41,073 bases of DNA, taken from Candidatus Hydrogenedentota bacterium. Lineage in GTDB: Bacteria; UBA8481; J006. Position numbers and translations under genes: made by a program. How positions within the stretch are numbered: position 1 is the first letter of the stretch; each line of letters starts with the position of its first letter. Shown here one piece after another: positions 9,124 through 39,575 of this stretch. The notes beneath the pieces are model-generated. The model made no database searches. It was not told where the DNA came from and saw only the letters and a program-made list of their open reading frames with translations. The stretch covers positions 1 through 41,073 of the forward strand of contig RFFU01000058.1 in the NCBI GenBank assembly GCA_003697085.1, given 5' to 3'.

Positions 9124-9690
9124 TCACTTATGGCAGGTGGCACACTCCAACGGCGCATTCTTTTTTCGATGACACTGAACGCAGAATCCCATCTCCAACG
9201 AACGCACCTGTTTCACCACCGGCATAGCCTTGATCTCTCCGTGACACGCGGCACAGTCGAGGCCGGCCTTGATGTGCGGTTTGTGCGAGAAGAGAACGTG
9301 ATCCGGAAGATTGTGCACCCGCTCCCACGGAATCGGTTCCTTCCTGTCCCAAAAGGCTCTTACCTTCTTGATCTCCGGTTTCCCCGCGGCTACGGATTTG
9401 TGGCAGGACATACAGGTCTCGATTGCCGGAATCCCCGCCGTGGAGGATTTCTCAAAGAGTTTGTGGCAGGTGCTACACGGAAGGCCGTTGTCGAAAACGT
9501 GAATCTTGTGGCTGAAGTTGATCGGCTGTTCGGGAACCGTCATATACCGATTCCAGTAGGCGTAGAGGGCGCCGACCGTAAGAAAGAGCAAAAGGAAATA
9601 GCCGGCGATCACAACGGGAATCGCCCGCCATATCCGATTGGTCAGTTTCTTTTCGTCCTCTTCCGTCCAGACACTCGTTTCTTCCGTCAT
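9124..9690 (-). CDS. actA: Alternative complex III subunit ActA, pentaheme cytochrome c
   Basis: This 188-residue protein has an N-terminal membrane anchor (residues about 23-45, IPVVIAGYFLLLFLTVGALY) followed by five CXXCH heme sites beginning at C72, C93, C146, C170 and C183. Additional FSHKIH and FSHKPH segments supply histidine ligands of the cytochrome c7 type. The anchor and exactly five hemes match ActA of ACIII, which carries electrons from the iron-sulfur/quinol part towards cytochrome c or the oxidase on the periplasmic side. It overlaps the preceding gene by four bases and is the last gene of the operon. ActA is normally the first gene of ACIII operons, so this position is unusual. 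The call rests on heme count, anchor and operon context. Confidence 0.85.
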   Translation of the reverse strand: MTEETSVWTEEDEKKLTNRIWRAIPVVIAGYFLLLFLTVGALYAYWNRYMTVPEQPINFSHKIHVFDNGLPCSTCHKLFEKSSTAGIPAIETCMSCHKSVAAGKPEIKKVRAFWDRKEPIPWERVHNLPDHVLFSHKPHIKAGLDCAACHGEIKAMPVVKQVRSLEMGFCVQCHRKKNAPLECATCHK

Positions 9691-11009: not shown

Positions 11010-11022
11010 CTCTATCCCTTCC

Positions 11023-12084
11023 TCACTTCAGACTCTTGATGAACGTATTGATCTTCTCAATCTCCGCGTCCGTCAAATTTTGCGGAGGCATAACGGGTTG
11101 GAATCCCTCCACCACATCGGCCGTCGGCGTTTTCATCGACTTCGTCAGATAGGCGTCATCCACGAGAACTTCGCGTGCCTTTCCGCCGGTCATAACGCGG
11201 ACCTTTTTCCCATAGATGCCCTTGAAGGAAGGACCCAGACGCGGGGAACCATCGACCGAATGACACGCGGCACACCCTTTGACGTTATACAGTTTCTCTC
11301 CCGCGGCCGCCATTTTCCGCTCTTTCTCCTCCGGAGAGAGTTCCTCCGCAACCGGTTCCTCCATCGCCTTCTTCTCCTCCGCCGCGCTCCGCAACCATTC
11401 CTCAAAAGCCTCCCGCGGAAGACTGACCACGTTTGTCATCATCTTGGCGTGACCGTCGCCGCAATATTCCGCGCACATCACCGTGTACGTATCGACCTCG
11501 TCCGCCTTGAACCACATATAGCCTTCCCGGCCCGGCACACAATCCTCCTTCACGCGAAAATGCGGGATGTAGAAGCTGTGAATGACATCCGCGGATGTAA
11601 GCGTCAAACGAACGGGAGTGCCCACGGGCACCTTCAGAACATTCGAATGCACGCCGTTTTCGTATTCAAACTCCCACGACCACATCCGCGCCAGAACCTT
11701 GACCTTCATCGCATTCTTCGGAACGGTCCTCATATTCCGAAAGCCCTCGTACCCCGCCCAAAACATCCCCAGAACAATGACGACCGGAATCACCGTCCAC
11801 CAGAACTCGAGCCACCAGTTTCCCTCGACCTGTACCGGAACCTCGACGCGGTCGTGCCTGTAAACCACGAGACAGTAAACCATAAAGACGACGATGCCGC
11901 CGAGAAGCAAGGCCGCGATCAATACAATCATCCAAAAGGTATGATCGACCTGCGCTCCGAAATCGGAATACCGGTTCACTCCGACAACCATCTCGACCAA
12001 AACTCCCGCCACCGCGAGAAGGATCACGACTCCCAACGCCTTCAACCAGGCCGCCGGATTCCGAGGATGCCCCGCCGCGGCCAT
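11023..12084 (-). CDS. coxB: Cytochrome c oxidase subunit II with fused cytochrome c (caa3 type)
   Basis: This 353-residue subunit carries the CuA site: H169 and CAEYCGDGHAKM (C204, C208, H212, M215), followed by a cytochrome c domain with CAACH (C271-H275) and a distal methionine in QPVMPP (M332). It therefore accepts electrons on its own heme and passes them through CuA to subunit I. Three hydrophobic segments are visible (about 16-34, 50-75, 95-112), one more than usual; the first may be a signal anchor. I start it at ATG 12084, which overlaps the coxD stop by one base (TGATG); the in-frame ATG at 12168 would lie inside coxD. It belongs to the caa3 oxidase encoded by the three preceding genes. 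Confidence 0.93.
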   Translation of the reverse strand: MAAAGHPRNPAAWLKALGVVILLAVAGVLVEMVVGVNRYSDFGAQVDHTFWMIVLIAALLLGGIVVFMVYCLVVYRHDRVEVPVQVEGNWWLEFWWTVIPVVIVLGMFWAGYEGFRNMRTVPKNAMKVKVLARMWSWEFEYENGVHSNVLKVPVGTPVRLTLTSADVIHSFYIPHFRVKEDCVPGREGYMWFKADEVDTYTVMCAEYCGDGHAKMMTNVVSLPREAFEEWLRSAAEEKKAMEEPVAEELSPEEKERKMAAAGEKLYNVKGCAACHSVDGSPRLGPSFKGIYGKKVRVMTGGKAREVLVDDAYLTKSMKTPTADVVEGFQPVMPPQNLTDAEIEKINTFIKSLK

Positions 12085-22324: not shown

Positions 22325-24460
22325 TTATCGTTTCCTCGAACGTTTCTTCGTGACAATTATTGTCTTTTTCTTCCGCGGGTTCTTTTTTCCTTCCTTCGGT
22401 TTCTCCGCGGCTTTCGAAATTTTCGGCTTTCGGCTCTTCCCCATTGCTTTTTTCCCTTTGGCTTCCCTCTTTCGTGTTTTCCCCGTCTTCTCCTTGCCCG
22501 CGCTGAAGGCGCGGACGTAATTGAGATACCCTCCGGCCAGAAGAATCTCGATCTCCCTTCCTTTCACCTCGGGAATGGTCTCGATCCTTTTGCCCATGTT
22601 GCTGATCAGAACGATCCTCTCTCCCTCACGCAGGCGATCCCGAACGAAGATTCCCTCCAGCGTTTCCCCCCGGCGCAGAATTTCGTAGTCCTCGGGCCGG
22701 GCCAGCCGCAACGGAAGAACGCCCGAGTGAACGAGATTCTTCCTGTGGAAACGGCCGAAGGATTTCGCCACGACGGCGACGACTCCCAACATCCTCGTGG
22801 CTAACGCGGCATGCTCGCGCGGCGCTCCCAATCCGTAGTTCTCCCCCGCCAAAATAATCCCGCCTCCGCGTTCCTTCGCCCGCCGAACAAAGAAGGGATC
22901 CGCATCGGAAAGAACACGGTTTGCCAATTCCGGAAGATTGGATCGGAGGCGCAAGGTTTCGAAGCCTCCGGGAAGTATCTGATCCGTCGTGACACGATCA
23001 CCCAACCGCGTAAGAATCTCCCCCGCGATTCGATCCGGATACGCTTCGAAATCCGGAAGCCCTCGAATATTCGGTCCTTCCTGGACCGGCTCTTCTTCTC
23101 TCTTGCGGCCGTGGTGAACCGGCTCGCAGCGAAGCGGGTCGATCGCAGGAAAGCGGTTGGGAAGATGCGCGGAACCGATCCGAACCCGCATTCTTCCGGG
23201 ATCGACGAGTTCTCCGGCCAAAGCGGAGAGAGAGGCGGTCAACGGCGAGGCCAGATAGGTTCTCGAATCGGGATTCCCACTCCGGCGCTCGGTGTTACGC
23301 GAGAACGTCCTCAGCGAATGGCTTGCGGTGGCGGGGACAAGGCCGAGTCCGATGGAGGGACCGCAGCCGGGTTCGAGAAAACGCACGCCGGCGTTGAAGA
23401 GCGGAGCGCAGAGGCCGCTTTGGATCGCCGCAGCCAAAACCGCCCGGGATGCCGGAACGTACACAACCTCCACATGTTCCGGAACCTTTTTTCCACGCAG
23501 AAGAGCCGAAATCGATGCCAGATCTTGATAACCTCCACAAGCACCGCCTCCCAAACAGACCTGATCGACGCGTGTTCCCGCCACATCGCGCACGGGAACG
23601 ACGTGATCAGGCGAATGCGGACAGGCCACGAGCGGCTCGACCTTCGAGAGATCGATGCGGATGGTGTCGTCATAGGAGGCATTCTTATCCGGCTTGATCG
23701 ACCGAAAATCGCGGGAACGCCCCCAGCGCTTCAGGAAAGCGCTCACACGCTCGTCGGCCGGAAAAAGAACCGCCAAAACCTCCGATTCCGCCAGTATCTG
23801 ACCAACAGTGAACCGTTCCGTGACGGTCAGAGCAGCGGCTCCCTTTCCTCGAAATTCGAGGATTCTTCCTTCACCGCCTCGGACGGTCAACAGTCGCAGA
23901 AGGTGAAGGCCGAGGTCGAAGGCGGAGACGCCGGTCCGGAAGCGACCACTCAGCTCCACGGCGACGACCTGCGGTCGTTCGAGGAAATACGGCATTCCGG
24001 CGACCGCGGCAGCGACATCGATCGAGCCTCCACTGAGGGAAAGCGCGCCGACGGCACCGCAAGCCGCCGCATAACTGTCCGCTCCCACGATCACCGCCCC
24101 CGGGCGCGCGCACCGTTCGAGGTGAACGCGTGAAGCAATTCCGCTGCCGGCCTTATATACGGTGATCCCCCGTCCCCGGAGAAAGGTTCTTAAGTAACGA
24201 TGGTCGTCCGAGGTCTCGAAACTCGCCTGAACAATGTTGTGGTCGATGTAACAAACGGCGGTATCCAAGGCGGACCACGAGACACCCATACTCTCGATCT
24301 GGCGGCAGGCGACGGTTCCGGTCGCATCGTGAAGAAATGCTTGATCGACGCGGAGCCCGATCTCCCCCGCGTCCCCCTCCGAGGCTTCGCGCTTATGCAT
24401 CTCGAGAATCTTATCTGCAAGAGTCCTCCCGCCCTGTCTCCACCCCTCTTGTCTTGCCAT
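22325..24460 (-). CDS. Aconitase-family protein lacking Fe-S and catalytic residues, with Lys/Arg-rich tail
   Basis: This 711-residue protein has the full two-part aconitase layout, from TLADKILEMHK through YIDHN (71-75), YLASP (402-406) and a C-terminal swivel domain (about 490-650). Several hallmark residues are changed: the GTDSHT site reads GADSYA (126-131, H to Y), the SCTN cluster cysteine site reads GGAC (305-308), GCGPC reads GCGPS (365-369), and the GSSREHAAL serine pair reads GAPREHAAL (545-553). Only one of three cluster cysteines remains, so it probably cannot hold the catalytic [4Fe-4S] cluster; E. coli YbhJ is a known cluster-less relative. From about residue 655 the tail is a run of lysine and arginine. 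ATG 24460 follows a strong purine-rich GGAGGAAGAGG site. It lies 29 bases after the GAF gene. Confidence 0.85.
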   Translation of the reverse strand: MARQEGWRQGGRTLADKILEMHKREASEGDAGEIGLRVDQAFLHDATGTVACRQIESMGVSWSALDTAVCYIDHNIVQASFETSDDHRYLRTFLRGRGITVYKAGSGIASRVHLERCARPGAVIVGADSYAAACGAVGALSLSGGSIDVAAAVAGMPYFLERPQVVAVELSGRFRTGVSAFDLGLHLLRLLTVRGGEGRILEFRGKGAAALTVTERFTVGQILAESEVLAVLFPADERVSAFLKRWGRSRDFRSIKPDKNASYDDTIRIDLSKVEPLVACPHSPDHVVPVRDVAGTRVDQVCLGGGACGGYQDLASISALLRGKKVPEHVEVVYVPASRAVLAAAIQSGLCAPLFNAGVRFLEPGCGPSIGLGLVPATASHSLRTFSRNTERRSGNPDSRTYLASPLTASLSALAGELVDPGRMRVRIGSAHLPNRFPAIDPLRCEPVHHGRKREEEPVQEGPNIRGLPDFEAYPDRIAGEILTRLGDRVTTDQILPGGFETLRLRSNLPELANRVLSDADPFFVRRAKERGGGIILAGENYGLGAPREHAALATRMLGVVAVVAKSFGRFHRKNLVHSGVLPLRLARPEDYEILRRGETLEGIFVRDRLREGERIVLISNMGKRIETIPEVKGREIEILLAGGYLNYVRAFSAGKEKTGKTRKREAKGKKAMGKSRKPKISKAAEKPKEGKKNPRKKKTIIVTKKRSRKR

Positions 24461-25878: not shown

Positions 25879-26916
25879 CTACCGAACGATCAGACGATCG
25901 CGGATTTTCGCAAGCAGTTCCGGGGTGATCGAGGGAACGTCGAGAAGTTCATCCACACTTTCGAACGCTCCGTAGCTTGCCCGGTACGCCAGAATCAATT
26001 TGATGTTCTGCGTGGAGAGTTCCGGAAGAGCGGCCAAATCCTGCTCCGTGGCGGTATTGATATCGATCGGTTGCGCTTTGGTCGAGGGTGCCACGGTGGA
26101 GGGAGGCGCGGAAGGCGTCGGGGCCGGGCGGGCTGCGGAACCGCTCACGGTCAAGCGATCTCGAACGCGCGCCAGGAGTTCGGGCGTAATCGAAGGAACG
26201 TTGAGTAAATCATCGACGGAGGAAAACGCCCCATAGTTCTGCCGGTAAGCCAGAATCAATTTCACGTTCTGAATGTTGAACTCGGGAATCGTCTTCAGTT
26301 CCGCTTCCGTGGCGGTGTTGATGTTCACAGGTCCCGCGGGGGAAGGCGCCGCCGGAGGCGGTGCGGCCGAAACGGCTGGAGCCGCCGGGGCGGCGGGCGT
26401 CGAGGAAGAGATTCTCCCCGCCGTTCCGGAAACCGCTTCCCCTGTTCCCACTGTCAGATACGGCCGAATCTTTCCGAACATCGTTGGAGAAATTCCCGGA
26501 ACATCGATCAACGCGTCCACCGTCGTGAAAGAGCCATAGGTATTGCGATAAGCAATGATCATACGGGCATGATTCTCCTGAATTCCCGGCAACGTCATCA
26601 ACTCGCGTACATCCGCTGTGTTAATGTTAACCTTCGTCCTTGGAACCGCGGGCGCGGGGGAAGGCGTCGGAAGCGGATTTTTCGAAGGAACAGCGGGTGA
26701 CGGCGGCGTTCCGACGGGCGCCGTTACGGAGACGACACGGAGGTAAGGCGAGACCTTGTCGAGAAGGTCCGGTGTCATTCCGGGAACCTTGACCAATTCG
26801 TTGACGGAACGGAAGGGACCGTTTTCTCCGCGATACCTCACGATCAATTCCGCCACATATCCCGGCATATCCGGAATCCGTTTCAGTTCCTCGGCGGTGG
26901 CGGTGTTCACGTTGAG
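25879..26916 (-). repeat. Four ComEA-like helix-hairpin-helix repeats at the secretin C terminus (protein-level)
   Basis: Each unit of 61 residues begins N(V/I)NTA or DINTA and ends with a PYL or DRL strand, matching the ComEA HhH domain, and they are joined by 26-40-residue proline/alanine linkers. Units 1 and 2 keep hairpin glycines (VPGMTP, LPGIQE, VPGISP). Units 3 and 4 are nearly identical to each other and have lost them (IPEFN, LPELS, VPSITP). The last residue is the second after unit four, so the protein ends with this domain. Confidence 0.88.
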
Positions 26917-29900
26917 CGTTCGGATCGAACCGGTCAGTGGTGGGGCCTTGTGTTCGGGAGCCGGGGAGGGCGCGGGTTCCGGAGCCTCCACGCGAACAGG
27001 TGAGGTCTTCACCTCGACCGGAGCCGCTTCAGAAACCGCAACCGGAGGGGGGGAAACGGCGGGGGCGGCGGCGGCAGCGGGTGCAGCGGATGAGGGAGCC
27101 GGAACCGGCGCCGGCCCGGTGATCGCTCCTCCGGCCCCCAAAGTCTGCCCCGGCATCAGGATGTGATTGCCGCGGATCGGTCGATTCTTCCAGATATCCT
27201 TAAGCCTTCGCCTGTTGTTCACGAGCCATCGCCGACCCGACCAGTCAACGGGAAGGTTGACCAGATACTTGAACCGATTCAGCTCTTCCTCCATCTGAAG
27301 TTCATGGGTCTGGGGATAGAGGAAGCGCGGCGTAATCAGAATCAAGATTTCCGTGTTGACGTCGGTTTTACTCGTCGTGCGGAAGAGTTGCCCGATCCCA
27401 GGAATGTCTCCCAACAGCGGAACCTTCTTCACATCCTTCGTCTCGTTCTTCACCATCAAACCGCCGAGGATCAGGGTCTGCCCGTCGCGTAGATCCACGG
27501 TACTGGAAACGGTTCGGGAGACGAAGGGAAATTCTCCCGTCTGCGGATTGGCGGCCCCCGTCACCGCGCTGATCGCGGCATCCACGGTCAAACGAACCAA
27601 ATCCGAGTTCCAAGTCCCGGAAGGCGTCACGGTCAACTTGATCGGGATCGTCTGGGGCGTCCCCGCGGAGAAGGTCTGCTGGCCCGCATTGTCCCGGGTC
27701 TGAACGACTGTCGGAATCGTCTGCGACAAATCCACGGAACCGGCCACGTTGTTTCGCAAGACAATCTTCGGCGATGTAATCACCCTCCCGTCATTTTTGG
27801 AAAGCAACGCGGTCAAGACGGCCTGAAGGTTGTTTCGGGCGATCCCGATCTGGAAGGGCCCGCCGTTGACATCGAAATTGACCTGAGCGCCCCCCATCGT
27901 TCCCGGAGCGTCACTCAGCGGCAACTCCGGGCTGTTGGCCGGCGGCATCGGAACAGGCGGACTCAAGCCGAAATCCGTGAGGTCCGGCCGGAAAGACCAG
28001 GAGATACCGAGATTCTTTACATCCGTCAGGTTCACCTCCGCAACAGCCACCTCGATCAAAAACTGCGGTGGAGCGCGGTCGAGATCGTCGATCACCTTCA
28101 AGGCCCGTCGGACCTTGTCCAAGGAATCGGTGATGATGAACGAATTCGACTGCCGATCGTACTGAATCTGGCCGTTCCCGGACAAATAGCTCTGAACAGT
28201 CGTCTTCAAGGCATCGATATCATCCTGGTTGTCGGCCGTCGTCGGAGCATAATAGCGGATCGGGCGGATGGCCGTGTGAACGGATTTGTCCAACGCCTCG
28301 ATCATCTTCGCGATTTCCCCCATAGTACGCGAGTCGGCCGAAGCCACAATCCGGTTGGCGTAATCGACAGTCTGAATCACCGCGTTGGGAAAGAGCGTCG
28401 TCAACGCCGAAGCAACGGTCGCGAGATCCGCTTCGGTTACCGGAAAGAGCCGGAATTCGTTCCGATCCAGACGCGAGAGGAACTCCGTCACCTCGGCGAT
28501 CTGTTGAGGCGTGGCCAGAATCCCCACTCCATTACCCGCCGGAAGTTCTTGAATATTAATGGTGCCGAAGAGGCCCGTAACCGCCGTCACGGCTTCCGAA
28601 GCGGAGACCTTCGAGAGATGATAGACCTTCCAGCGCATCCCGGCCTCGACATCCGCAAGCAACTTCTCCGCACCGTCCAAGGCCTCCTCGCTTCCCTGAG
28701 CGAGAAGGATTCCGGCGTTGGCCGAGGTTGTAATAACAAGGCTGGGGTAAAAGGTCTGAAGAATCGTCTGTGCGTCCGTTGTGCTCAAACGACCAAACTT
28801 TAGAACCCGCACGCCCTGGAGCGCATCCATCTTTTTCAAAAGATCAACCGCATTGGCGACGGCCTCTTCCGAACCCGAGATCGTAATCCACGGTCCCACG
28901 GTCTGGATCGAAACGTCCGTCGCCGTCATCATCTGGGACAGCGCCGCGGTCAGGTCCGTCGTGGAGAGAACCTTCGGTTCATAGACACGGAAGGCGCTGT
29001 AGGTATCCATCACATCGATCAGCTTATCGAGTTGGTCGATGCGCTCGGGGGTGCCGCGGGCGACGAGCCAACCGGGAGGTGTCGTTTGAACGACCACAAA
29101 TTCGATGTCGGGAAAGAGCGTCGAAAGATTTCCTTGAATTCCCGACATATCGATAAAGACGCCGCGGCGGCGGTAATACCGCTCGTTCTTGTCGAGATTA
29201 TCGAATTTTTTTATCGATTCTTTTACTTCTTCGGCCAACCTCGCCGGCGCCGCAAAAGCGATGTGATGCAACGTCGGGAGCGCGGTGAATTGAAGATTCG
29301 GATACGCTGTTTGAAGCAGCGCCACCATTTCATCGGCAGTCACATTGTTGACCCGCGCCACATGAACACCCACGTTGTCCAGTTCCTCGACGACTGCGGC
29401 CACTTCCCGCAAAAGAGATTCGTTCGCCCTCACGGCAAGATTTTGCTGCGCGTCGGCCGCGATAACGAAGAGGTTCGGATAAAGCGACTGAAGATACGTC
29501 TGCATCTCCGTCGGGGTCACATTCTTCAAGGAAAAATATCGGATCGGGATGACGGTATCGAATTCTTCGATAAGCGAGGCAACCTTCTCGAGAATCTCCG
29601 GTGGACTGATCACAAGAAGTTCTCCGCGTTCGTCCTGCGGTATCATCTCGAGAAGATGCCCCGCCATAATCCTCGTCACGTCCGAAACGAATGCTGTCGG
29701 GGTACGATACCGGAGCGTAAAGAGGCGGAACTTCGCCCCCAACACCGCCTTGCCCCAAGCCTCATCCATCCTTGCAAGGAACTCTTTCGCCTGGGCGACG
29801 CCGTCGGGGGTTCCTCCCAAGAGGACAAATCCTCCCTGTCCCGAAATAGCCGAAACCGCAAGCCCACTGATCCGCGCGTTCCCCAAAATCGTCGAGACGT

Positions 29901-32900
29901 CAGACAGAAGATCATCCCCTGAAATTCCGGTGTTTTCGGCGGCACGAAGACCGTTCACCGGCGCGTTTTTGAAGATATAAAAATCAAAAACCGTATTGGG
30001 ATTCCCGACAACGCCTTTTTGGTCCAATTCCGGAAGAATCTCCGCAATCTTTTTTTGAGTATAGGGGCGGGCCCAAACGCGGATCGTGTTTCCCGAAACG
30101 CGATAAAACTCCTCGAGATTGTCTTCCGCCGTCACTCCCACATTCAAAAGTCCCCGCCACAACAATCCCCCCAACACCACTGGATCAGCGTTCTTCACCT
30201 CGTATTCGCGATATACGATCGGTAACGTATCGGCACCATCGACCCGGTTCAACGCCATCCGGATTCGTTCCGTCTTCTCCGGGCTGGCCGAAAACCCGAC
30301 GGCGTGCAGATCGGCCAACTCGGTGAAGGTTACGTCCGGAAAGGCCGCCCCCAGAAAACTCACAGCGTCCGCCGATGTGATCGCCTTGAGCCGAATGACG
30401 GTGACGTTCTGATTGTCGAGAACACGAATGGTGCGAATCGCCGCCTGAAGTTGCTCCGCGTCACGGCCGCGCAACAATAGATGTCCTTCGACTTCCGAAA
30501 CCCCCAGCCCCGGATAGGCCTCGTTCAAGGCCGTATGAACGGTCGCCAGATCGGCGTACTGCACCTCGACCAACGCTGTTCGTTGCTGATCAAGTTCCTC
30601 AACCAACCCCTCGATCTCCCGAAGAACCTCCCGATCCGCGAAAACGATGACCGCCTGCACATCGTCGAGAAGCGCGGTCTTCTGCGCCAGCGCCGGATAA
30701 AGCGTCGTGATCATCGTCTGCAGATTCGCCGGAGAAATGCGCGAGGAGGAAAATATCTGATACGGAGAAAACGAGAAATCCGCGCGGTCCATCGTCGGCC
30801 AGATCCTCTTCATCCGTTCCATCGTCGCTTCGAAAACCCACATCTTGATCGTCGAGTCCTCGGGATCAACCAAGAGCATCTCTCCCGTCACATCACCTTG
30901 GTTGAGCATATTGTCATTGAGCCACTTTCCGAGACGGACCGGATCGGCATGCTCCACCTTGTACTCCTTGAATTGCAATTCCACATGCTCGGCGAACTTC
31001 TCGTTGTCAAAATGCTTGATCAACTGCTCGATCTGCATATGGTCGTTCGTATTGGCATAAGCGATAAGAGTCTTGAGCGAATCCTCGGCTACGGAACGGA
31101 TCGTGGACGTCGTTCGTGTCACGGTCGTTGTCCGGCCCGTTTGAGGATCCTTCACCTCCTGCTCCTCGATCCGTACCTCGGCGATCGTTCGATTGATCAG
31201 GTCCATCAGTTGGCTCGGAAGGAGATGTTCGACGTGATAGACCTTGACATATTCCCCGGCGGTCGGATCACTGTAGGGTTCCGCTTCCTCGATCTTTTGG
31301 ATCAAACGCAACGCCTCGAGCGCAAGTTCCACAGGGGCTTGGATGACAAGAATATTCTTCGATGTGATCGGATTGACGCGAAAGATGTTCTGGCGCTGCT
31401 GCGCGCGGTCTTGTTCGCGAAGGAAATCGAGAACCGAATTGACCGCTTCGTTGCTCCGCACCTCGAATGAGGAGATGCGGCTCAAAACGTTCTCGTTCGA
31501 AAAGACATTCCGCAAAATGTTCGTGACCTCGGCGGCGTCTGAGTTCCGCAAGGGAATGATCAAGGTCGTGTCGTTGACCGTGGCTCCGCGGGGTTGATCG
31601 AGGTACTCGATTGCCCGTTTGATATCCGGCAACTCGTCACGGGAATTGACGACCACGAAGATGGAATTCGAGGAGCGCTCGTCAAAGAACTGCGCCGTGG
31701 GGAAGATCTTTCCGAGCGTCGGAGCGACGGTCACGGCGTCGGCGTTGGCCAACGGATAAACCTCCCACCGCCCCTCCGGCTCGTCCAGGGATTCCACCAG
31801 TTGAAGAACCGCCGGTATCACCTCCTCGGGACCGATCATGATCAGAGAATTCGTGGGAGCATACGGCACGATATTGACGTCTCCGATCCGCGTCGTCGCC
31901 AGCGCCGCCAAACTCCCCGCCGGAGACGGGGGCGCTCCCTTCTTTTGAGCCGTCTTTCCGGTTCCCGCCGCCTTCTCCTGCCCCGAGGCCGCGCGTTGCT
32001 GAATCTGCGTCTGTAAGGTCTGGAAAACCTGCGCCAGCGTCGCGGCATTGGCATATCGCAGCTTCCGTATCACGACGGTATCCGTCGACTCCGCCGCCTG
32101 CTGGATGGAACCGAGCAAGGAGCGAATCTGCTTCTTGTCGAAATCCTTCGGGACGAAGACGATCTCCCGGCGCGTCGCCGCGTCGGCAAAGGACCGCACC
32201 CCCGGATACATCTCCTGGATGATTCTGTCCAGAAGCGTGACGTCGATCCCTTCCGCCCTGAGGACCAACGGCTCACCAGATCCCACGGCCGTGTCCAATT
32301 CCGTTATCACGGCCTCGATGCTGGGGAACAACGGCTCCGGTGCCGTTACGATCAACTTGTTCGTCCGTGCGTCCGCCACGACGAGAATCTTCTGAACGAC
32401 GCGGGCCGTGGACTGGGCCGTTCCCTTCGCCGCAGCATTCGCTCCCTTCTTCTCCGTCCCCTGCCCCTTCGCTTCGGGCGCATTCGCTGCGGCGGTCCCC
32501 TCCTTCTTGACCCCCACTTGCAACTCCGCCTGCTGGAATATCTGCGTCAGAATCGGCTGAATCCGCTCCGCCGTCGTGTACCGCACCGGATAGATCTTCG
32601 TAATCGCCGCCTCGCCTTGGGTCGCTCCCGTGGCGAAAAGTCCTGCATTCTCCGGTACGTCGATCTCCTCGACGAACTCCTCGATCCTTTTCGCCGTGGC
32701 TTCGGCTCCCACAAGCAGAATCCACCCGTCTCCCGTCAGAGTCTTCTCCTGAGAAGAGATCATCGTTTGAAGATAGGCGTCAAGTCCGGGGGCATCGAGA
32801 TACTTGACGCGGATCAGATGCGGCTGGAATTCCCCGAGATTTCGAATGATCTCATAGACCCGGCGGATGTTCGCGACGAAATCGGTGATGATGATCTGGC

Positions 32901-34218
32901 CCGTCGCCGGACTGGAGATAATCTTTGCATTGGTCGTCAAGAGGTTCGGAATGGCCTGGCTGATCTGTTCCACATCCCGCGTCGGGACCGTCAAGACGAC
33001 CGTCTTGACGACATCCTGCGGCAGAGTCTCCAGAAGACTCGGATCCGTTACGATCTCCTGCCCCCGCGTCATCGCCTCGACAAAGGTCACGATTCTGATG
33101 GACCCGTCCGCCTCCTCGATCCTCGTTAAATTCTTCATTGAAAGGATCTTGTCCAGCGCCTCGTCGATCGGCATATTCTCGAGATGAACCGTGATCTCGG
33201 GCGTCGCCAGCCCGATGACGCCATCGGAAAGGACCAGATTCCAATTCGCGATTCGGCCCAAGAACCGCAAGATGTCCGGAACCGGAGTCTGGTAGAAATC
33301 CATCGAGACGAGTTGCGGAGCGACATTGATTTCGAACTGCGTGAACCGCGTGACTTCTCCCACGGTGAACGCCGCCTGGATACGATGAATTCCGGGGCGC
33401 GGCCCCGCTGTCCAACGCGCCAAACGGGCCTTCCCGTCCGGCCCCGTAACGCTGACGTCCTGGTTTCCTGGTTCTTTCGGATCGACGTCCAAACGCCCGT
33501 TCCCGTCAATGTACGTCCACTTCACCTCGACTCCCGGAACCGGATTCCCGAAGGCATCGAGCACGACCACCTCGAGCGGTTGCGTGGATTCCTTTCTCGT
33601 GATTCCTTTCGCGACCCCGTCCCCCACCGGTTTGATGACATCCGGTTTCCGCGCCACCGCGTAGAGTTCAAAGGAGGCCTCGGCGGCCGTCCCCTCCACG
33701 CGCGCCGTCACGACGACACGCCCGCCGGCGTAGGGAAGCGTCACCCGCGTCGTGGCGACGCCATCCGCGGAAGCCGTGGCCGAAGAAGGAGAGATCTTTA
33801 CGTCCGGATTTGTGCTCGTAAAGAGAACCCTCACTCCGGAAACCGGAGCCCCCTCGTTCGGATCGAACACTCTGACCGTCAACGGAATGGGGAGTTCCGT
33901 TCCGACCAAGCCACGCTGAAAATTCCCGCCGAGAATTTCGATTCTTCTCTTCGCCGCGCTGACGGTGGGTTGGTAAACCGCTTCTCCGACGCGCTCCTTC
34001 TCCAACTCCTTTCGATCCAGGATCACCAACGTGACGACCGCATCGGTCGAGGCGACGGAGAGATCGATATCCGTCGATCGAAGATCAAGCACCACGCGGC
34101 CTTCGGGAGGCTCCTCCGTGTGAAGACTATGCCGAATGCGCGCGACCGGCCCTGCGGGACACTCGATCCCCCCGGCGGGCAAGGCGTCGGCAAGCCCAGG
34201 GAAATCCAGAACCAGCAT
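25879..34218 (-). CDS. pilQ: Giant type IV pilus secretin (PilQ-like) with ~23 N1-type modules and four C-terminal ComEA-like HhH domains
   Basis: This 2,779-residue frame is the main part of the secretin. Order: second half of an AMIN domain (1-70), two Ig-like domains (about 90-190, 195-300), N0/STN (301-378, FYQTPVPDILRFLG), about 23 N1-like ring modules (403-2051), and the secretin barrel domain (2052-2301) with DGRVITSPKIVLRNN, QTLILGG and VPLLGDIPGIGQLF. A proline/alanine linker and four helix-hairpin-helix domains (2435-2495, 2530-2590, 2631-2691, 2718-2778) with the ComEA signature NINTA follow. It should form the outer-membrane gate of a type IV pilus with a very long periplasmic shaft and a candidate DNA-binding tail. 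The frame begins at ATG 34218 inside the AMIN domain; the missing signal peptide and AMIN half lie in the preceding frame. PilMNOP neighbours support pilus over type II secretion. Confidence 0.9.
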   Translation of the reverse strand: MLVLDFPGLADALPAGGIECPAGPVARIRHSLHTEEPPEGRVVLDLRSTDIDLSVASTDAVVTLVILDRKELEKERVGEAVYQPTVSAAKRRIEILGGNFQRGLVGTELPIPLTVRVFDPNEGAPVSGVRVLFTSTNPDVKISPSSATASADGVATTRVTLPYAGGRVVVTARVEGTAAEASFELYAVARKPDVIKPVGDGVAKGITRKESTQPLEVVVLDAFGNPVPGVEVKWTYIDGNGRLDVDPKEPGNQDVSVTGPDGKARLARWTAGPRPGIHRIQAAFTVGEVTRFTQFEINVAPQLVSMDFYQTPVPDILRFLGRIANWNLVLSDGVIGLATPEITVHLENMPIDEALDKILSMKNLTRIEEADGSIRIVTFVEAMTRGQEIVTDPSLLETLPQDVVKTVVLTVPTRDVEQISQAIPNLLTTNAKIISSPATGQIIITDFVANIRRVYEIIRNLGEFQPHLIRVKYLDAPGLDAYLQTMISSQEKTLTGDGWILLVGAEATAKRIEEFVEEIDVPENAGLFATGATQGEAAITKIYPVRYTTAERIQPILTQIFQQAELQVGVKKEGTAAANAPEAKGQGTEKKGANAAAKGTAQSTARVVQKILVVADARTNKLIVTAPEPLFPSIEAVITELDTAVGSGEPLVLRAEGIDVTLLDRIIQEMYPGVRSFADAATRREIVFVPKDFDKKQIRSLLGSIQQAAESTDTVVIRKLRYANAATLAQVFQTLQTQIQQRAASGQEKAAGTGKTAQKKGAPPSPAGSLAALATTRIGDVNIVPYAPTNSLIMIGPEEVIPAVLQLVESLDEPEGRWEVYPLANADAVTVAPTLGKIFPTAQFFDERSSNSIFVVVNSRDELPDIKRAIEYLDQPRGATVNDTTLIIPLRNSDAAEVTNILRNVFSNENVLSRISSFEVRSNEAVNSVLDFLREQDRAQQRQNIFRVNPITSKNILVIQAPVELALEALRLIQKIEEAEPYSDPTAGEYVKVYHVEHLLPSQLMDLINRTIAEVRIEEQEVKDPQTGRTTTVTRTTSTIRSVAEDSLKTLIAYANTNDHMQIEQLIKHFDNEKFAEHVELQFKEYKVEHADPVRLGKWLNDNMLNQGDVTGEMLLVDPEDSTIKMWVFEATMERMKRIWPTMDRADFSFSPYQIFSSSRISPANLQTMITTLYPALAQKTALLDDVQAVIVFADREVLREIEGLVEELDQQRTALVEVQYADLATVHTALNEAYPGLGVSEVEGHLLLRGRDAEQLQAAIRTIRVLDNQNVTVIRLKAITSADAVSFLGAAFPDVTFTELADLHAVGFSASPEKTERIRMALNRVDGADTLPIVYREYEVKNADPVVLGGLLWRGLLNVGVTAEDNLEEFYRVSGNTIRVWARPYTQKKIAEILPELDQKGVVGNPNTVFDFYIFKNAPVNGLRAAENTGISGDDLLSDVSTILGNARISGLAVSAISGQGGFVLLGGTPDGVAQAKEFLARMDEAWGKAVLGAKFRLFTLRYRTPTAFVSDVTRIMAGHLLEMIPQDERGELLVISPPEILEKVASLIEEFDTVIPIRYFSLKNVTPTEMQTYLQSLYPNLFVIAADAQQNLAVRANESLLREVAAVVEELDNVGVHVARVNNVTADEMVALLQTAYPNLQFTALPTLHHIAFAAPARLAEEVKESIKKFDNLDKNERYYRRRGVFIDMSGIQGNLSTLFPDIEFVVVQTTPPGWLVARGTPERIDQLDKLIDVMDTYSAFRVYEPKVLSTTDLTAALSQMMTATDVSIQTVGPWITISGSEEAVANAVDLLKKMDALQGVRVLKFGRLSTTDAQTILQTFYPSLVITTSANAGILLAQGSEEALDGAEKLLADVEAGMRWKVYHLSKVSASEAVTAVTGLFGTINIQELPAGNGVGILATPQQIAEVTEFLSRLDRNEFRLFPVTEADLATVASALTTLFPNAVIQTVDYANRIVASADSRTMGEIAKMIEALDKSVHTAIRPIRYYAPTTADNQDDIDALKTTVQSYLSGNGQIQYDRQSNSFIITDSLDKVRRALKVIDDLDRAPPQFLIEVAVAEVNLTDVKNLGISWSFRPDLTDFGLSPPVPMPPANSPELPLSDAPGTMGGAQVNFDVNGGPFQIGIARNNLQAVLTALLSKNDGRVITSPKIVLRNNVAGSVDLSQTIPTVVQTRDNAGQQTFSAGTPQTIPIKLTVTPSGTWNSDLVRLTVDAAISAVTGAANPQTGEFPFVSRTVSSTVDLRDGQTLILGGLMVKNETKDVKKVPLLGDIPGIGQLFRTTSKTDVNTEILILITPRFLYPQTHELQMEEELNRFKYLVNLPVDWSGRRWLVNNRRRLKDIWKNRPIRGNHILMPGQTLGAGGAITGPAPVPAPSSAAPAAAAAPAVSPPPVAVSEAAPVEVKTSPVRVEAPEPAPSPAPEHKAPPLTGSIRTLNVNTATAEELKRIPDMPGYVAELIVRYRGENGPFRSVNELVKVPGMTPDLLDKVSPYLRVVSVTAPVGTPPSPAVPSKNPLPTPSPAPAVPRTKVNINTADVRELMTLPGIQENHARMIIAYRNTYGSFTTVDALIDVPGISPTMFGKIRPYLTVGTGEAVSGTAGRISSSTPAAPAAPAVSAAPPPAAPSPAGPVNINTATEAELKTIPEFNIQNVKLILAYRQNYGAFSSVDDLLNVPSITPELLARVRDRLTVSGSAARPAPTPSAPPSTVAPSTKAQPIDINTATEQDLAALPELSTQNIKLILAYRASYGAFESVDELLDVPSITPELLAKIRDRLIVR
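28066..33012 (-). repeat. Array of ~23 N1/NolW-like secretin ring modules (protein-level repeat)
   Basis: Residues about 403-2051 of the secretin consist of units of 55-110 residues with the same plan: a beta strand with YPL/V-type hydrophobics, a helix beginning D/T-A-x-x-V/L, a strand ending in an I-x-V/G segment, and a closing helix ending LD or ID (for example VVEELDN, FLSRLDR, VIDDLDR). I count about 23. Some units carry alanine/lysine-rich or polar inserts (third, fifth and eighth). DNA identity between units is low, so the expansion is old. Confidence 0.75.
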
Positions 34219-34733
34219 CCGATTGATCCTTCGCTCTTGAAGGCACCATCTCCGCCGTCGCGAAAGATACGAATTGTTACACGCTCTTTTGACCCCCGGG
34301 CCGAGATCCCGTAGATACCGGGCTTCTTGTTCTTTTCAGGCTGGGGAGGAAGAGAACGCGTCCAGATCAGAGCGGAGCGATCCGAGGGTGTCTCCAATTC
34401 GGGATGGAACACCTCGACAGCGCCCGGCGGTTCCGGAGGCCGGCCGCCGGTCGCCTCGCTTCGCGCCGCCTCCGAACGCCGCTCCTCTTCCCGCGCGATG
34501 CGGATCTCGGCCAGAAGTTTTATGGCACGATCTTCCTCTTCCTTTCCCGGATTCGATTCCAGAAACTCCTGTAACTCCCGCTCGGCGGCGTCATACGACC
34601 CGAGTGCGTAAAGATATGCGGCCTCTTCCAACGAAGGCTGCGCCGCAAGCGATCGAGCGGGCGCAAGCGCCTGCACCGAGAGAAAAACCAGACACCCCAC
34701 CAGGGCAAAGGTAAAGCAAGGTTGCTTCTTCAT
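34023..34733 (-). CDS. pilQ: N-terminal fragment of the giant secretin: signal peptide, short TPR and half an AMIN domain
   Basis: This frame gives 236 residues from ATG 34733, which follows AGAGGA. An in-frame ATG at 34796 would add 21 polar residues before the signal peptide and is less likely. MKKQPCFTF and a hydrophobic core form a signal peptide ending near SLAAQ; a TPR-like helix pair (YLYALGSYDAAERELQEFLE) and a proline-rich stretch follow. IYGISARGSKERVTIRIFRDG is the first half of an AMIN domain. After about nucleotide 34230 the frame turns into unstructured cysteine-, serine- and proline-rich text, while the AMIN domain continues in the next frame (MLVLDFPG). The two are therefore one gene broken by a one-base shift; residues encoded by 34023-34229 in this frame are probably not real. 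Confidence 0.7.
   Translation of the reverse strand: MKKQPCFTFALVGCLVFLSVQALAPARSLAAQPSLEEAAYLYALGSYDAAERELQEFLESNPGKEEEDRAIKLLAEIRIAREEERRSEAARSEATGGRPPEPPGAVEVFHPELETPSDRSALIWTRSLPPQPEKNKKPGIYGISARGSKERVTIRIFRDGGDGAFKSEGSIGCWFWISLGLPTPCPPGGSSVPQGRSRAFGIVFTRRSLPKAAWCLIFDRRISISPSPRPMRSSRW
34225..34245 (-). other. Apparent single-base frameshift inside the secretin AMIN domain
   Basis: On the gene strand the first frame reads AFKSE to about 34230 and the second reads RINRMLVLDFPG from 34230 on. Adding one A after GAA at 34230 joins them as AFKSERINRMLVLDFPG, a natural AMIN sequence. No X-XXY-YYZ slippery heptamer is present at the junction and no long homopolymer explains it. GAAGGA at 34227-34232 lies eight bases before ATG 34218, so an internal start is also possible. 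A true mutation, an assembly error, or split translation would all fit. Confidence 0.75.
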
Positions 34734-34803: not shown

Positions 34804-37800
34804 TCACCGTTCCTCCTCCGCCGGGGTCCGCAAAAAACGCAACATCGTCTCGATGCGCCCCCGCATCCGCTGGATCTCTTTGTCTTCTGGATGTGACGAC
34901 AAATACTGATCTATCAACGTCAAGGCCTCTCGGTACCGCCCGGCACGGATTTCCCCTTCGATCGCCGAGCGGGTTGCCGTATTTTTTACCGGTTCCGTCG
35001 CCGGTTGTAAAGCGGGAATCTTACCTTTTTCCTTCGAAACCGACTTCGGCGTCGAGCCGCCTCCGCCAACCACCGACTCGAGCACGCGCAGACGGGAACG
35101 AATTCCCTCGAGGACGGTGTTGCCTGGAGATTCGCGCAACGCCCTTTCGACAAGATCCCTCGCCTCGGAATACCGCCGCTCGGTCACGAGCCGCCGAATC
35201 TCCTTCAGTGTCTCCGCGGAGACCGGCTTGGAAGGAACGGATCTCTTCCCAACCGTCCCGGGCTTCTTCGCCGATTTTCCTTCTTCGAGAGGGACAATCC
35301 GGGGCCCGCGCGGAAGAATCACCGGTGCCGGCAACTCCACTCCGGAAACAACCGGTTCGACATCGATCAACAATGCATTGCCGTCCGTCCCGGTGCGAAG
35401 AGAGGCCGGAGCGGACGCGTGAATCAGGACGCGCACTCCGGTGGCATCCTGCACGAGGTTGACGAGGGAAACGAAGCCGATCCGGTCGATCTGAGAGATA
35501 GCTCGGTGAGCCAAGGTCGCTCCCTTCAGCCGCAACTCCAATAACGAGTCCGTAATTCTGCGGACGGAGGACGGAGACAGCGGTCCGTTCCCCAGAAGGG
35601 AAAGCCGTGTGCCCCCCGCTCGCTCCTCCGCCGTCACGAAGACGACTTCCGGGTTACCCAACACCCCCGGCGGCACCACCGCCGCCTCGAAATCGATCTC
35701 CTCCGCCTTGTCGTAAACGAGATACGCTCCGGCGGATCCATTGCTGAAGAGAGCGCCCTGAAGGTTGGAGGGAAGAAGCGTGCCGGAGGCGGCGGTCTTG
35801 CGTCCTTCCTTTATTTGGACAGCGCGAAGACGCAGCCCCGTGCCGTCGTTACCGAAATTCTTGACGATATTGGAGAAACTGTCCCTTGCCGTGATTCGGA
35901 ACTTGAGAAGTTCACCAGCGCGGAACTTTCCCGATTCCGCCGGCCGGATATCGAAGGCCACGGCTGGGCCCGGCTCGACCGTAAAGACCGACGACTTCCC
36001 CTCGATCCGAAGAACCTGATCCTCAACTGCCACCGAGAAACGCCCCGCTTTTCTCGCACGCAACACGATCTCGGCGACTCCTTCCCGAAAGACCATATTC
36101 GCGATCCCTTCGATCTCGAAGACATCCCCCGCGGAGCGCCCATCCTCGCCACGCACTTCAACGGAAAGGGAAGCGGAGGCCGGAGAATAATCGCGAATCT
36201 TGTTGCCCAACCGATCACGCATCTCGATCCGCACCGGCAAAAGGTCGCCCGCGGAAACGGATTCGGGAACGGAGACGACCAGTTGCGCGGGTCGCGAAGG
36301 AATCACGTGGACCTTTTCCGAGCGCCCGAGAATCTTCGAGCCGATCTCGCGGGCCACGAGGACCTGATCGCCGGTTTCCAGAAATGTCACCTCCACCTCG
36401 GCCACTCCGTTGTGGAAGACCTCCGACTCTAGAAGCGGCGGAGCGACTGGAGCCCCTTGTTCGGTGTAGAGCGCCACGCGGGCACCGCGTCGCGAATAAC
36501 CCGCCACGGCGTTCCCGAACTCATCAAGAGCGGTCACCGAGACCTTCACCGGCTCACCGGCGGCGGCGCGCGGCGGAATGACGAGGCGAAACCGCGCCGG
36601 CTCGGAAGAGGTCACCAGAACGGCGCCGCTCTTTCCCGTCGCCGTTCCCGCTTTTTCGAGAAGATCGAGATGGATCGACTCGGCCGTGTTGTACCGGACC
36701 TTGACCAGCGCCACGCCCTCCTCGAACGCTGCCGGCCCGACTTCCGACGGCTCGAGATCGCCGTTTCCATCCGAAACAAAGAGAACGGGCGAGCCGGTCC
36801 GATCATAATCCGTAACGACATTGCCGAAACGGTCCAAAGCCACGACGGCCACCTCGAAGGGATCGTTCGCGATCGCCGATTGCGGTGCCTCGACGCGGTA
36901 AGAAGCAACCGCCGCCGGAAGAACCGTCACCGCCGCCGATTGCCCCGCGATCCCCTTCCCCGCATCGACCACCTGGAGCGCAAGCGTTCCCGTCTTGAAA
37001 CATTTGACAGTGAAAAACGCCGTCCCCGAACGAAAATCACGCGCGGTCACCACGGGAGCCTCGATCTCGGACCCGTCCGTGGACCGGACCGTCAGGCGAA
37101 GGTTCTCATCGCGGGGGTCTGAAACGAGATTGCCGAAACGATCGTAAGCGACAACCTGAACCGCCAACGGCTCGCCCGCCCGTGCCTCGGAAGCGGCTAA
37201 AACCTCCAACCGCTCGATCCTTCCCCCCGTCACTTTAAGCCATTCACGGCTCTCACCCCTTTTGACCCCCGAAGCGTCGGAAACGATCACCCGCACCTTC
37301 TCCGCTCGATCGTACCGAACACTGATCATCGCCAACCCCTTTTCGAACTCCGAAGGACTCACGGCGGCCGGTGTCAGATGCCCCGATCCGGACGTCGAAA
37401 GCCTCAAGACGTTTCCGGTCTTGTTGAAATCCGTAATCGTGTTTCCCGCCGCGTCTCGGGCCTCAAGAGCCACAAGAAACGGTTCACCGGCGGGAACGGG
37501 CTTTCGCGGTACAGAAACGACCACCTCGGCCAAGGCTCCGGCGCGAAAATGGATCGGGTGAGACCTTCCGGCAATCCCCGCGAACTCTACCTCGATCGGC
37601 GTCTTCTCCGCCTGATTGTAACGAACCTTCACGCGAGCCCGTCCGTTCTCAAAATAACTCAACGGAATCTTCGCCGGATCAAAAGACCCCACGGCTCCGA
37701 CCGCGGCGGGTAGGATCTTTACCTCCCCGGCACGCTCTTCCAGACCCGAGACGGGATTCCCGTATCGGTCCTTCACCTCGACGGCGATCTCTATCGGTTC

Positions 37801-38286
37801 CCCAACCCGTGCCTCCGCCGGCGAGAAAACCTCGATCGAGGCCGGTGGGCCGGGTTCGATCGAGAAGCGTGAGGATCGACCGACCGCCGGGAATCTCCGG
37901 GCGCGCACGCGGAGATAATAAAGACCGACGGATTTGAATACGACCCGCGCCCGCAAAACTCCGCCCTCGAACGCCCCCGCGGAAAAACGCTCCGGCGAGA
38001 CCGGCTCCGTCTGCAAGTGCTGCACCTTCACCGGAACCATCTCCAGGAGAATTCCCTCCCCGATGCGATCGTAATCCTTCACGATGTTCCCCTGCGCGTC
38101 ACGGACCACGATTCGGATTTCCGAAGGATCCCCGGCGCGATTCGCTTCGGGGACCGATACTTCGAAACTCGCCGGTGTCCCCGCCTCCACCTCCAAGGCG
38201 CCGACCCCACTCGTCCCGCACAGAATCGCCAGCATCAACATCAGAATGACCCCGCCCAGTAATCCCGACTCTCTTCGAACTCTCAT
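34804..38286 (-). CDS. Secreted protein with eight Ig-like repeats, an AMIN domain and TPR-like C terminus
   Basis: This 1,160-residue protein starts at ATG 38286 after AGAGG; the open frame continues upstream into pilP but without a signal sequence. A signal peptide (GLLGGVILMLMLAILCG) is followed by eight repeats of about 105 residues, each opening with a P-A-S/R-F/V-x-V strand and containing A-G-E/D-P followed by a D-R-F/Y-G-N-x-V/I turn, typical of bacterial Ig-like/invasin-type domains. An AMIN domain sits at about 892-978 (VVNLVQDATGVRVLIHASAP-like) and TPR-like helices end the protein (about 1030-1160). AMIN domains often bind peptidoglycan and occur in secretin partners. The gene lies between pilP and the secretin, so it probably anchors or extends the pilus channel in the cell wall or at the surface. 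No exact homologue is known to me. Confidence 0.75.
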   Translation of the reverse strand: MRVRRESGLLGGVILMLMLAILCGTSGVGALEVEAGTPASFEVSVPEANRAGDPSEIRIVVRDAQGNIVKDYDRIGEGILLEMVPVKVQHLQTEPVSPERFSAGAFEGGVLRARVVFKSVGLYYLRVRARRFPAVGRSSRFSIEPGPPASIEVFSPAEARVGEPIEIAVEVKDRYGNPVSGLEERAGEVKILPAAVGAVGSFDPAKIPLSYFENGRARVKVRYNQAEKTPIEVEFAGIAGRSHPIHFRAGALAEVVVSVPRKPVPAGEPFLVALEARDAAGNTITDFNKTGNVLRLSTSGSGHLTPAAVSPSEFEKGLAMISVRYDRAEKVRVIVSDASGVKRGESREWLKVTGGRIERLEVLAASEARAGEPLAVQVVAYDRFGNLVSDPRDENLRLTVRSTDGSEIEAPVVTARDFRSGTAFFTVKCFKTGTLALQVVDAGKGIAGQSAAVTVLPAAVASYRVEAPQSAIANDPFEVAVVALDRFGNVVTDYDRTGSPVLFVSDGNGDLEPSEVGPAAFEEGVALVKVRYNTAESIHLDLLEKAGTATGKSGAVLVTSSEPARFRLVIPPRAAAGEPVKVSVTALDEFGNAVAGYSRRGARVALYTEQGAPVAPPLLESEVFHNGVAEVEVTFLETGDQVLVAREIGSKILGRSEKVHVIPSRPAQLVVSVPESVSAGDLLPVRIEMRDRLGNKIRDYSPASASLSVEVRGEDGRSAGDVFEIEGIANMVFREGVAEIVLRARKAGRFSVAVEDQVLRIEGKSSVFTVEPGPAVAFDIRPAESGKFRAGELLKFRITARDSFSNIVKNFGNDGTGLRLRAVQIKEGRKTAASGTLLPSNLQGALFSNGSAGAYLVYDKAEEIDFEAAVVPPGVLGNPEVVFVTAEERAGGTRLSLLGNGPLSPSSVRRITDSLLELRLKGATLAHRAISQIDRIGFVSLVNLVQDATGVRVLIHASAPASLRTGTDGNALLIDVEPVVSGVELPAPVILPRGPRIVPLEEGKSAKKPGTVGKRSVPSKPVSAETLKEIRRLVTERRYSEARDLVERALRESPGNTVLEGIRSRLRVLESVVGGGGSTPKSVSKEKGKIPALQPATEPVKNTATRSAIEGEIRAGRYREALTLIDQYLSSHPEDKEIQRMRGRIETMLRFLRTPAEEER

Positions 38287-38380
38287 CGCAACCTCTTCTC
38301 CCTGCTTCGATGCCTCGTCCACTTTTCTCCGCCCGACGATCTCATTCTCGATAACCCTCCGGTCCTTAAAGCCCTTTCTC

Positions 38381-39025
38381 CTATCGTATCCGAATATCGC
38401 CGCGGATCGAACCGGCATCCGGCCCCGAATACCATGGCTGCCCCTCGACCTCCGGCGATTCCAACGGAAGGAAGGTGTCCAAAGACCCTTCCTGGGAAAG
38501 CCAGATACCATCCCGCTTGATCGCGGTTACCTTCACGTCCGTGTTCGGTAGATTCATTCCAACCGTGATCTCCACCGCCGGTTCCCCGTTGATGCTGATC
38601 AGAGCAAGATAGCGGCCATCCAGCTTCAAAATACCGTACAAGAGAAAATCATCCGTCACAATCGGATAACGCTCCGCCTCCCCCTCTCCGCCGCCCCCAG
38701 CCGCCTCTTCCTTTCCCTTCTCGGGACGTTCCTCCTCCCCTCCTCTTCTCTGTTGCCGTACGATGGCCTTCTCATATTCCTTCGGCCTCTCGAAGGGTTC
38801 CCATTTCAATAACGCTTCCGGGATCCGACCATTGGTGCGAATCTCCGTGTCCGTCCCCGACTCGAATCCCAACGAAACTTGTCGGATCTTCGGAGGCGGC
38901 GGAGGCGGCAACTCGGCCATCGGATCCGTCGTTGCAACCTGCTGTAACGGGTACGCCATTCCCAAATTCCCCAACAGCGTCAGAACCACGGCGATCTGAG
39001 GTAAACGCGCCTTGAAATTCTCCAC
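38381..39025 (-). CDS. pilP: Type IV pilus assembly protein PilP-like
   Basis: This 214-residue protein has an N-terminal hydrophobic helix (about 10-25, IAVVLTLLGNLGMAYPL), a proline-rich stretch (PPPPPP), a charged linker and a C-terminal beta domain (about 120-200) with DDFLLYGILKLDGRYLALI and VGMNLPNTDVKVTAI, the pattern of PilP. PilP links the inner-membrane PilM-N-O complex to the secretin's N0 domain. It follows pilO by four bases and precedes the Ig-like gene by 94. A long acidic/glycine-rich insert (about 95-118) is unusual. The family call is by position and fold pattern; sequence signal is moderate. Confidence 0.7.
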   Translation of the reverse strand: MENFKARLPQIAVVLTLLGNLGMAYPLQQVATTDPMAELPPPPPPKIRQVSLGFESGTDTEIRTNGRIPEALLKWEPFERPKEYEKAIVRQQRRGGEEERPEKGKEEAAGGGGEGEAERYPIVTDDFLLYGILKLDGRYLALISINGEPAVEITVGMNLPNTDVKVTAIKRDGIWLSQEGSLDTFLPLESPEVEGQPWYSGPDAGSIRGDIRIR

Positions 39026-39029
39026 GCCC

Positions 39030-39575
39030 CTACTCCTCCGCTCCCGGCTCGATGTAGGAATAAGTCTCGAGGCTTAAGTCCATTTGATACTTGTCTTCTT
39101 TCTCCTCCCCTTCCCGCGCCAGATTGAAACCGGTCACATTTATGATCCGTTCGTAATTGCGTAGTTTGTGGAGAACCCGCATCGCAGTCTGAAAGGAAAT
39201 CCCGTGAATTCCCGTAATGCTGATTCTGTGGACGCGGTAAATATCGAGAACTTCCGGGGCGCTGACATTCTTCGCATCGATCTGGTCCGAAGTGATTCCA
39301 ACTTCCTCCAGAATGGGCAGAACCATCAAGAGAAGATCGTCCAACTGAGCACCCGAGGGCAACTTCGAAAGAGAGGCTTCCAGGAGGCGTTGAAGCTCTC
39401 GCTCCTCGGCGCTGACCTTCTCCAGTTTCGGAGCATTGGCTCGAGCATTCGAAAGATTCGTCTGAAGTTCGTTGATCTCCGTCTCCCAGCCTTCGTACTC
39501 CGGATAAAAGGTGTCGTACGCGTAATAGGCCCCCAATCCGATCAGGAGAATGGCATAGATGAGATTCTTCGTCAC
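39030..39575 (-). CDS. pilO: Type IV pilus assembly protein PilO
   Basis: This 181-residue inner-membrane protein has one N-terminal helix (about 4-21), a coiled coil (about 28-75, with ELQTNLSNARANAPKLEKV and ERELQRLLEASL) and a ferredoxin-like C-terminal domain. This is the PilO form. PilO pairs with PilN and with PilP to build the periplasmic alignment complex between the pilus motor and the secretin. The start overlaps the pilM-pilN stop by four bases and the end is four bases before pilP, as in standard pilMNOPQ operons. Confidence 0.85.
   Translation of the reverse strand: MTKNLIYAILLIGLGAYYAYDTFYPEYEGWETEINELQTNLSNARANAPKLEKVSAEERELQRLLEASLSKLPSGAQLDDLLLMVLPILEEVGITSDQIDAKNVSAPEVLDIYRVHRISITGIHGISFQTAMRVLHKLRNYERIINVTGFNLAREGEEKEDKYQMDLSLETYSYIEPGAEE

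Follow-up and report, generated by a model that had tools for sequence, protein, structure and literature searches.

The window is a stretch of 41,073 nucleotides from a Candidatus Hydrogenedentota bacterium, and it is one contig (C88) of a 3.2 Mb genome assembled in 145 contigs. Its minus strand contains a stop-free open frame of 2779 codons (25879–34218) that encodes a secretin with a helix-hairpin-helix (HhH) tail. Within this one frame, about 20 secretin N-type domains are followed by a secretin barrel and then by four HhH domains with the ComEA fold. The original prediction, that a secretin barrel continues into four ComEA-like HhH domains in a single unbroken protein, agrees with this frame and with its Pfam matches, and the protein extends far further upstream than was then described, through about 18–21 N-type domains.

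As read, the 2779-residue frame begins without a signal peptide. Probably the secretin gene truly starts around 34733 and changes frame around 34218, and this change is either real or a sequencing error. The probable true N-terminus is in another frame of the minus strand (34218–34733) and combines a start that resembles a signal peptide by eye, MKKQPCFTFALVGCLVFLSVQALAPARSLAA, with a weak TPR-like stretch. An AMIN domain has no significant Pfam match across the frame change near 34218, though one had looked likely there by eye.

The genes upstream of the secretin are also on the minus strand. Directly upstream is a 1235-residue protein (34804–38511) in which Ig/filamin-like stretches, TPR, and a weak match to AMIN are recognized; it lies between pilP and the secretin gene and is a possible partner for the secretin. 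Beyond it are a probable PilP with a weak match (38381–39025; E 0.006, under the cut-off), PilO (39030–39575; E 1.1e-11), and a region holding the PilM C-terminus and PilN that is cut by the contig end (39572–41071). Elsewhere in the window, positions 22325–24460 encode a protein of the aconitase family whose C-terminal tail is long and rich in Lys/Arg.

From its N-terminus, the secretin frame contains Ig-like domains, an STN domain, the array of N domains, the barrel, and the four HhH units, all on the minus strand. The better of two Big_1 Ig-like stretches recognized by Pfam covers residues 112–179 (33682–33885), and the STN match is weak (residues 342–377; 33088–33195; Pfam E 1.6e-4, under the curated cut-off). 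The array of secretin N-type domains, each with a beta-alpha-beta-beta-alpha pattern, occupies 28075–33000 according to Pfam and an iterated profile. It is followed by the secretin barrel (PF00263; residues 2137–2298; 27325–27810; Pfam E 1.4e-35), which matches GspD and PilQ in structure comparison. A conserved segment directly after the barrel, ELQMEEELNRFKYLVNLPVDWSGRRWLVNN (27184–27324), is predicted to be helical by AlphaFold2 and serves as a marker of the family. A disordered, Pro/Ala-rich linker (26917–27186) leads to the HhH units, which lie at 26734–26916 (U1, hairpins DMP and GMT), 26449–26631 (U2, GIQ and GIS), 26146–26328 (U3, EFN and SIT), and 25885–26067 (U4, ELS and SIT).

The number of N-type domains depends on how they are counted. 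Secretin_N (PF03958) matches with an overall Pfam E of 5.5e-90 over 13 stretches and finds 17 places in the frame at E<=1, while the iterated profile marks 23 N-type stretches, part of which are halves of domains with insertions. From these sequence matches, the number is put at about 18–21. A model of part of the array repeats the beta-alpha-beta-beta-alpha pattern about 13 times in 976 residues; with a mean pLDDT of 53 from two sequences, this low-confidence model is good only for the repeat pattern.

The HhH tail belongs to the ComEA fold by several measures. Pfam assigns four stretches of HHH_3 (PF12836) to it at E 2.7e-69, and the NCBIfam models comEA TIGR01259 and TIGR00426 match it at 3e-57 and 1e-50. 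T2SSK models also match the tail, but overall the units are closer to ComEA than to GspK by score. AlphaFold2 predicts each unit as a compact two-HhH domain (pLDDT about 90–97), with linkers between the units that are predicted to be disordered (pLDDT <50). In structure comparison, U2 superposes on ComEA of G. stearothermophilus (8dss) with Z 13.1 and 1.0 Å over 65 residues at 46% identity, and U1 leads to Tex. PsbU and XcpX, a homologue of GspK, share the ComEA fold. The ComEA-type nature of the units originally proposed from their sequence is thus upheld by the family scores, the predicted folds, and the superposition of U2.

An orthologue with the same domain order is found in a member of a different family within the same order, Ca. 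Hydrogenedentes bacterium CG07_land_8_20_14_0_80_42_17 (PEWQ01000043.1), where the frame runs for 1547 residues to the contig end. The source genome and this CG07 genome make up the sampling of the phylum. Because this domain order recurs in a separately assembled genome, an assembly chimera or a sequence error at the boundary between secretin and HhH domains, including an error that joins two genes, is ruled out. From the barrel end through the four HhH units, the two proteins are 54% identical. Identity in HhH units 1–4 is 56, 63, 74, and 69%, compared with 62% in the post-barrel segment, 48% in the secretin core, 38% in the N array, and 30–48% in the linkers, and the PELSTQNIKL stretch of U4 is identical in CG07. 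Because the units are better kept than the secretin core, the N array, and the linkers, sequence conservation indicates that they are under selection, non-canonical hairpins included. The CG07 array lacks whole N domains, so the number of N domains varies.

The combination of a secretin with HhH domains is rare in the collections sampled. Among 386 sampled genomes, no match to the tail alignment outside the phylum extended across both the secretin end and the HhH region. A combined secretin and HhH query of 386 genomes, with two candidates scored per genome among the matches listed (E<=1e-30), gave no further HhH-bearing secretin among the candidates scored. An HMM check of the retrieved loci found both domains only in the source and CG07 copies. 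A scan of 84,980 species genomes with two motifs of this protein family gave the Hydrogenedentes (CG07) orthologue as its sole match, and no place in a plasmid collection spanned 80% of the tail. These rarity searches are samples and not proof of absence. Among the papers searched, none combines HhH with PilQ and 'secretin domain', and broader searches gave nothing relevant, in keeping with the initial impression that no secretin of this form had been described. The HhH-tailed secretin is a real and conserved domain architecture that is apparently undescribed.

Gene position marks this secretin as a PilQ that belongs to a type IVa-like pilus system. The assignment follows from pilM/N, pilO, and a probable pilP upstream, together with pilB, pilT, and pilC beside the orthologue. 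The CG07 cluster encodes two PilB-like ATPases, a PilT (score 442 against a cut-off of 319), a PilC/GspF protein, and pilin-like proteins, and the source genome encodes three T2SSE-family ATPases on contig C110. Family models divide differently: the PilQ model TIGR02515 does not reach its cut-off (205 versus 284), and the GspD model TIGR02517 exceeds its own (384 versus 351) with a score that is summed over many N-domain repeats. Although the GspD model is above its cut-off, Pfam finds no GspD-type N0 domain (PF21305) in the protein, and pil genes surround it instead of a T2SS gene context. The protein shares with type IV pilus (T4P) secretins, including Thermus PilQ, a barrel, stacked beta-alpha-beta-beta-alpha N domains, and a pilMNOP-type context. 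It differs from Thermus PilQ in its roughly 20 N-type domains, its Ig-like domains, and its tail of four HhH units.

The source genome encodes three further secretins on contigs C63, C14, and C106, of which the C63 protein is GspD-like and carries the GspD N0 domain. The C106 secretin (6832–11547) has a C-terminal extension of 842 residues with matches to the Ig-like Big_13 and HYR domains. Long C-terminal tails are therefore not unique to the HhH secretin.

The HhH units have the fold of competence proteins but differ in the hairpins. ComEA proteins (8dss, 8dfk, 2duy, and that of V. cholerae) share the HHH_3 fold and the NINTA motif with the secretin units. ComEA is a small stand-alone protein that is secreted or membrane-anchored, whereas the tail is the C-terminal part of a secretin, has four units, and lacks both the second hairpin glycine and the basic DNA-contact residues. 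The eight secretin units of the two proteins were aligned with HhH units from loci that match comE and GspK models; these ComEA- and GspK-type units were picked by profile search, which favours typical members, and the sequences are related, so the counts carry no p-value. The second Gly of the G-h-G hairpin is absent from all 16 secretin hairpins (0/8 in each of hairpins 1 and 2), present in 75 of the 78 ComEA-type hairpins (38/39 and 37/39), and found in only 3 of the 34 GspK-type hairpins (1/14 and 2/20). Lys or Arg within the three residues after this position is likewise absent from the secretin units (0/8 and 0/8) and occurs in 14/39 and 31/39 ComEA-type and 2/14 and 1/20 GspK-type hairpins. 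Asp or Glu occupies these positions of hairpin 2 in 6/8 secretin, 13/39 ComEA-type, and 14/20 GspK-type units.

The secretin and GspK hairpins have a (G)h[T/S]xxL pattern in common, and by sequence the secretin tail has GspK-like hairpins. The minor pseudopilin GspK/XcpX has non-GhG hairpins of the (G)h[T/S/D]xxL type, like the secretin tail, but it has an N-terminal pilin helix where the HhH protein has a secretin N-terminus. U1 and U2 retain parts of the hairpin, including the first Gly in some, and the NINTA stretch is kept in the secretin units. Net charge was dropped as a test of DNA binding since it fails to tell the secretin units apart from the canonical ComEA units that these two genomes also encode, and the two tails, with pI 6.9 and 8.0, are not acidic.

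These positions matter in characterized ComEA proteins. In V. cholerae ComEA, K63A cuts transformation about 250-fold, while no transformation is left with K63E or K62/63A; uptake is blocked by G60V and G60E but tolerates G60A (PMC3879209). From its numbering, G60 would be the second glycine of the GIG motif. B. subtilis ComEA loses nearly all transformation activity with K164A or K199A (PMC9747964). Judged by these residues, the tail domains have lost the features by which competence proteins grip DNA.

ComEA-like domains are also encoded apart from the secretin. The source genome has a separate tetra-HhH ComEA-like protein with canonical hairpins on contig C110, and CG07 has a three-unit ComEA-like protein that adjoins a ComEC-like protein; both genomes have two ComEC-family matches and DprA. 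Given these separate ComEA-like proteins and ComEC, a secretin-borne receptor would be an addition and not a replacement. On C110 (7242–10412), the tetra-HhH protein is followed by a protein that by eye resembles the portion of ComEC with the metallo-beta-lactamase and by a second protein with two HhH, and pilB/pilT-type ATPases lie about 20 kb from the tetra-HhH protein on the same contig. In total, the source genome has 16 HhH places, several of them C-terminal on unrelated proteins. Single HhH with partly degenerate hairpins occur at the C-termini of coiled-coil/TPR envelope-like proteins (contigs C28, C1, and C46). Two unrelated genomes are also rich in HhH, with 28 and 13 matches, part of which lie in frames of 1000–2229 residues.

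The position of the tail can be judged from other secretins. In GspD and InvG, the S domain that follows the barrel sits on its outer periphery (PMC12114550), and contacts of S domains with neighbours and with pilotins are expected to stabilize the pore (PMC12114550). PilQ proteins are said to lack a C-terminal helical segment (PMC5745081). On the S-domain precedent, the HhH tail would leave the outer barrel wall into the periplasm, outside the tube of N domains. The early description of the domains as lying at the channel mouth is thus imprecise, as this analogy would put them around the outside of the barrel.

The original prediction read the fusion as a one-protein DNA-uptake port. In such a port, the HhH array would hold incoming double-stranded DNA on the periplasmic side and ratchet it in beside the pore, doing the job of ComEA. 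The fusion itself and the ComEA fold stand, with family scores far over chance and the NINTA motifs kept, and the link to a retractable pilus is provided by PilT, in genomes that encode ComEC and DprA. The proposed DNA-binding role is weakened: hairpin Gly and basic residues are missing in all 16 hairpins, canonical ComEA-like proteins are encoded separately in both genomes, and the tail should exit on the barrel exterior, away from the lumen. A one-protein port is possible but disfavoured on these sequence features, and we regard it as unlikely. Somewhat less probable still is a bolder form, in which the T4P secretin is its own periplasmic DNA receptor and a ring of about fifty HhH domains captures pilus-pulled DNA through a hairpin chemistry other than that of ComEA.

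Two further explanations dispense with DNA. The tail may be an assembly or stability element, an enlarged S domain that packs on neighbouring protomers or binds a pilotin-like factor and would let a very large secretin assemble and stay in the outer membrane. The helical, well-conserved post-barrel segment and the stabilizing contacts expected of S domains (PMC12114550) speak for this role, but it would need less than a tail of four HhH units held on lengthy disordered linkers, and it is about as doubtful as the uptake port. The tail may otherwise be a neutral appendage, with HhH domains spreading as passive C-terminal additions of no specific role in an HhH-rich lineage. The many HhH places in the source genome, several at the ends of unrelated proteins, fit such a spread; however, the units are the best-conserved part of the protein between the two families while the linkers diverge, and this is the least probable of the explanations considered.

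We favour, at roughly even odds, a PilQ with a very long N stack whose HhH tail forms periplasmic docking or anchoring arms. The loss of the DNA-gripping hairpin residues makes docking or anchoring likelier than a DNA receptor within the secretin. With 12–15 subunits per ring, about 48–60 HhH domains would surround the channel on their flexible linkers, and these arms may dock proteins or serve as anchors and thereby brace a very long channel. Candidate partners include the HhH-tailed coiled-coil/TPR proteins, pilus-tip or accessory proteins, and the cell wall. DNA binding or uptake, if any, would fall to ComEC and to the canonical ComEA-like proteins that are encoded apart from the secretin. 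Against docking arms count the family scores, by which the tail is still closest to ComEA, as well as the kept NINTA stretch, the partial hairpins of U1 and U2, the non-acidic pI, and the non-discriminating net charge. Protein binding by units of the ComEA fold has a precedent in P. multocida ComE1, which binds fibronectin and DNA via the same region, with VNINTA and both HhH required for DNA as for fibronectin (PMC2601033). One activity therefore does not exclude the other, and the secretin units may yet bind DNA through a surface other than that of ComEA.

The PilQ of Thermus thermophilus has 757 residues and six rings, which was termed an unusual number (PMC5745081); by comparison, secretin N-domain stacks may reach about three times that number. 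The architecture also bears on the end of the protein. The C-terminus of T4P secretins is usually short, and the HhH secretin indicates that it can bear an extensive array of conserved interaction domains. The anchoring of so long a channel becomes testable, as does the possible reuse of ComEA-fold modules for docking proteins in the envelope.
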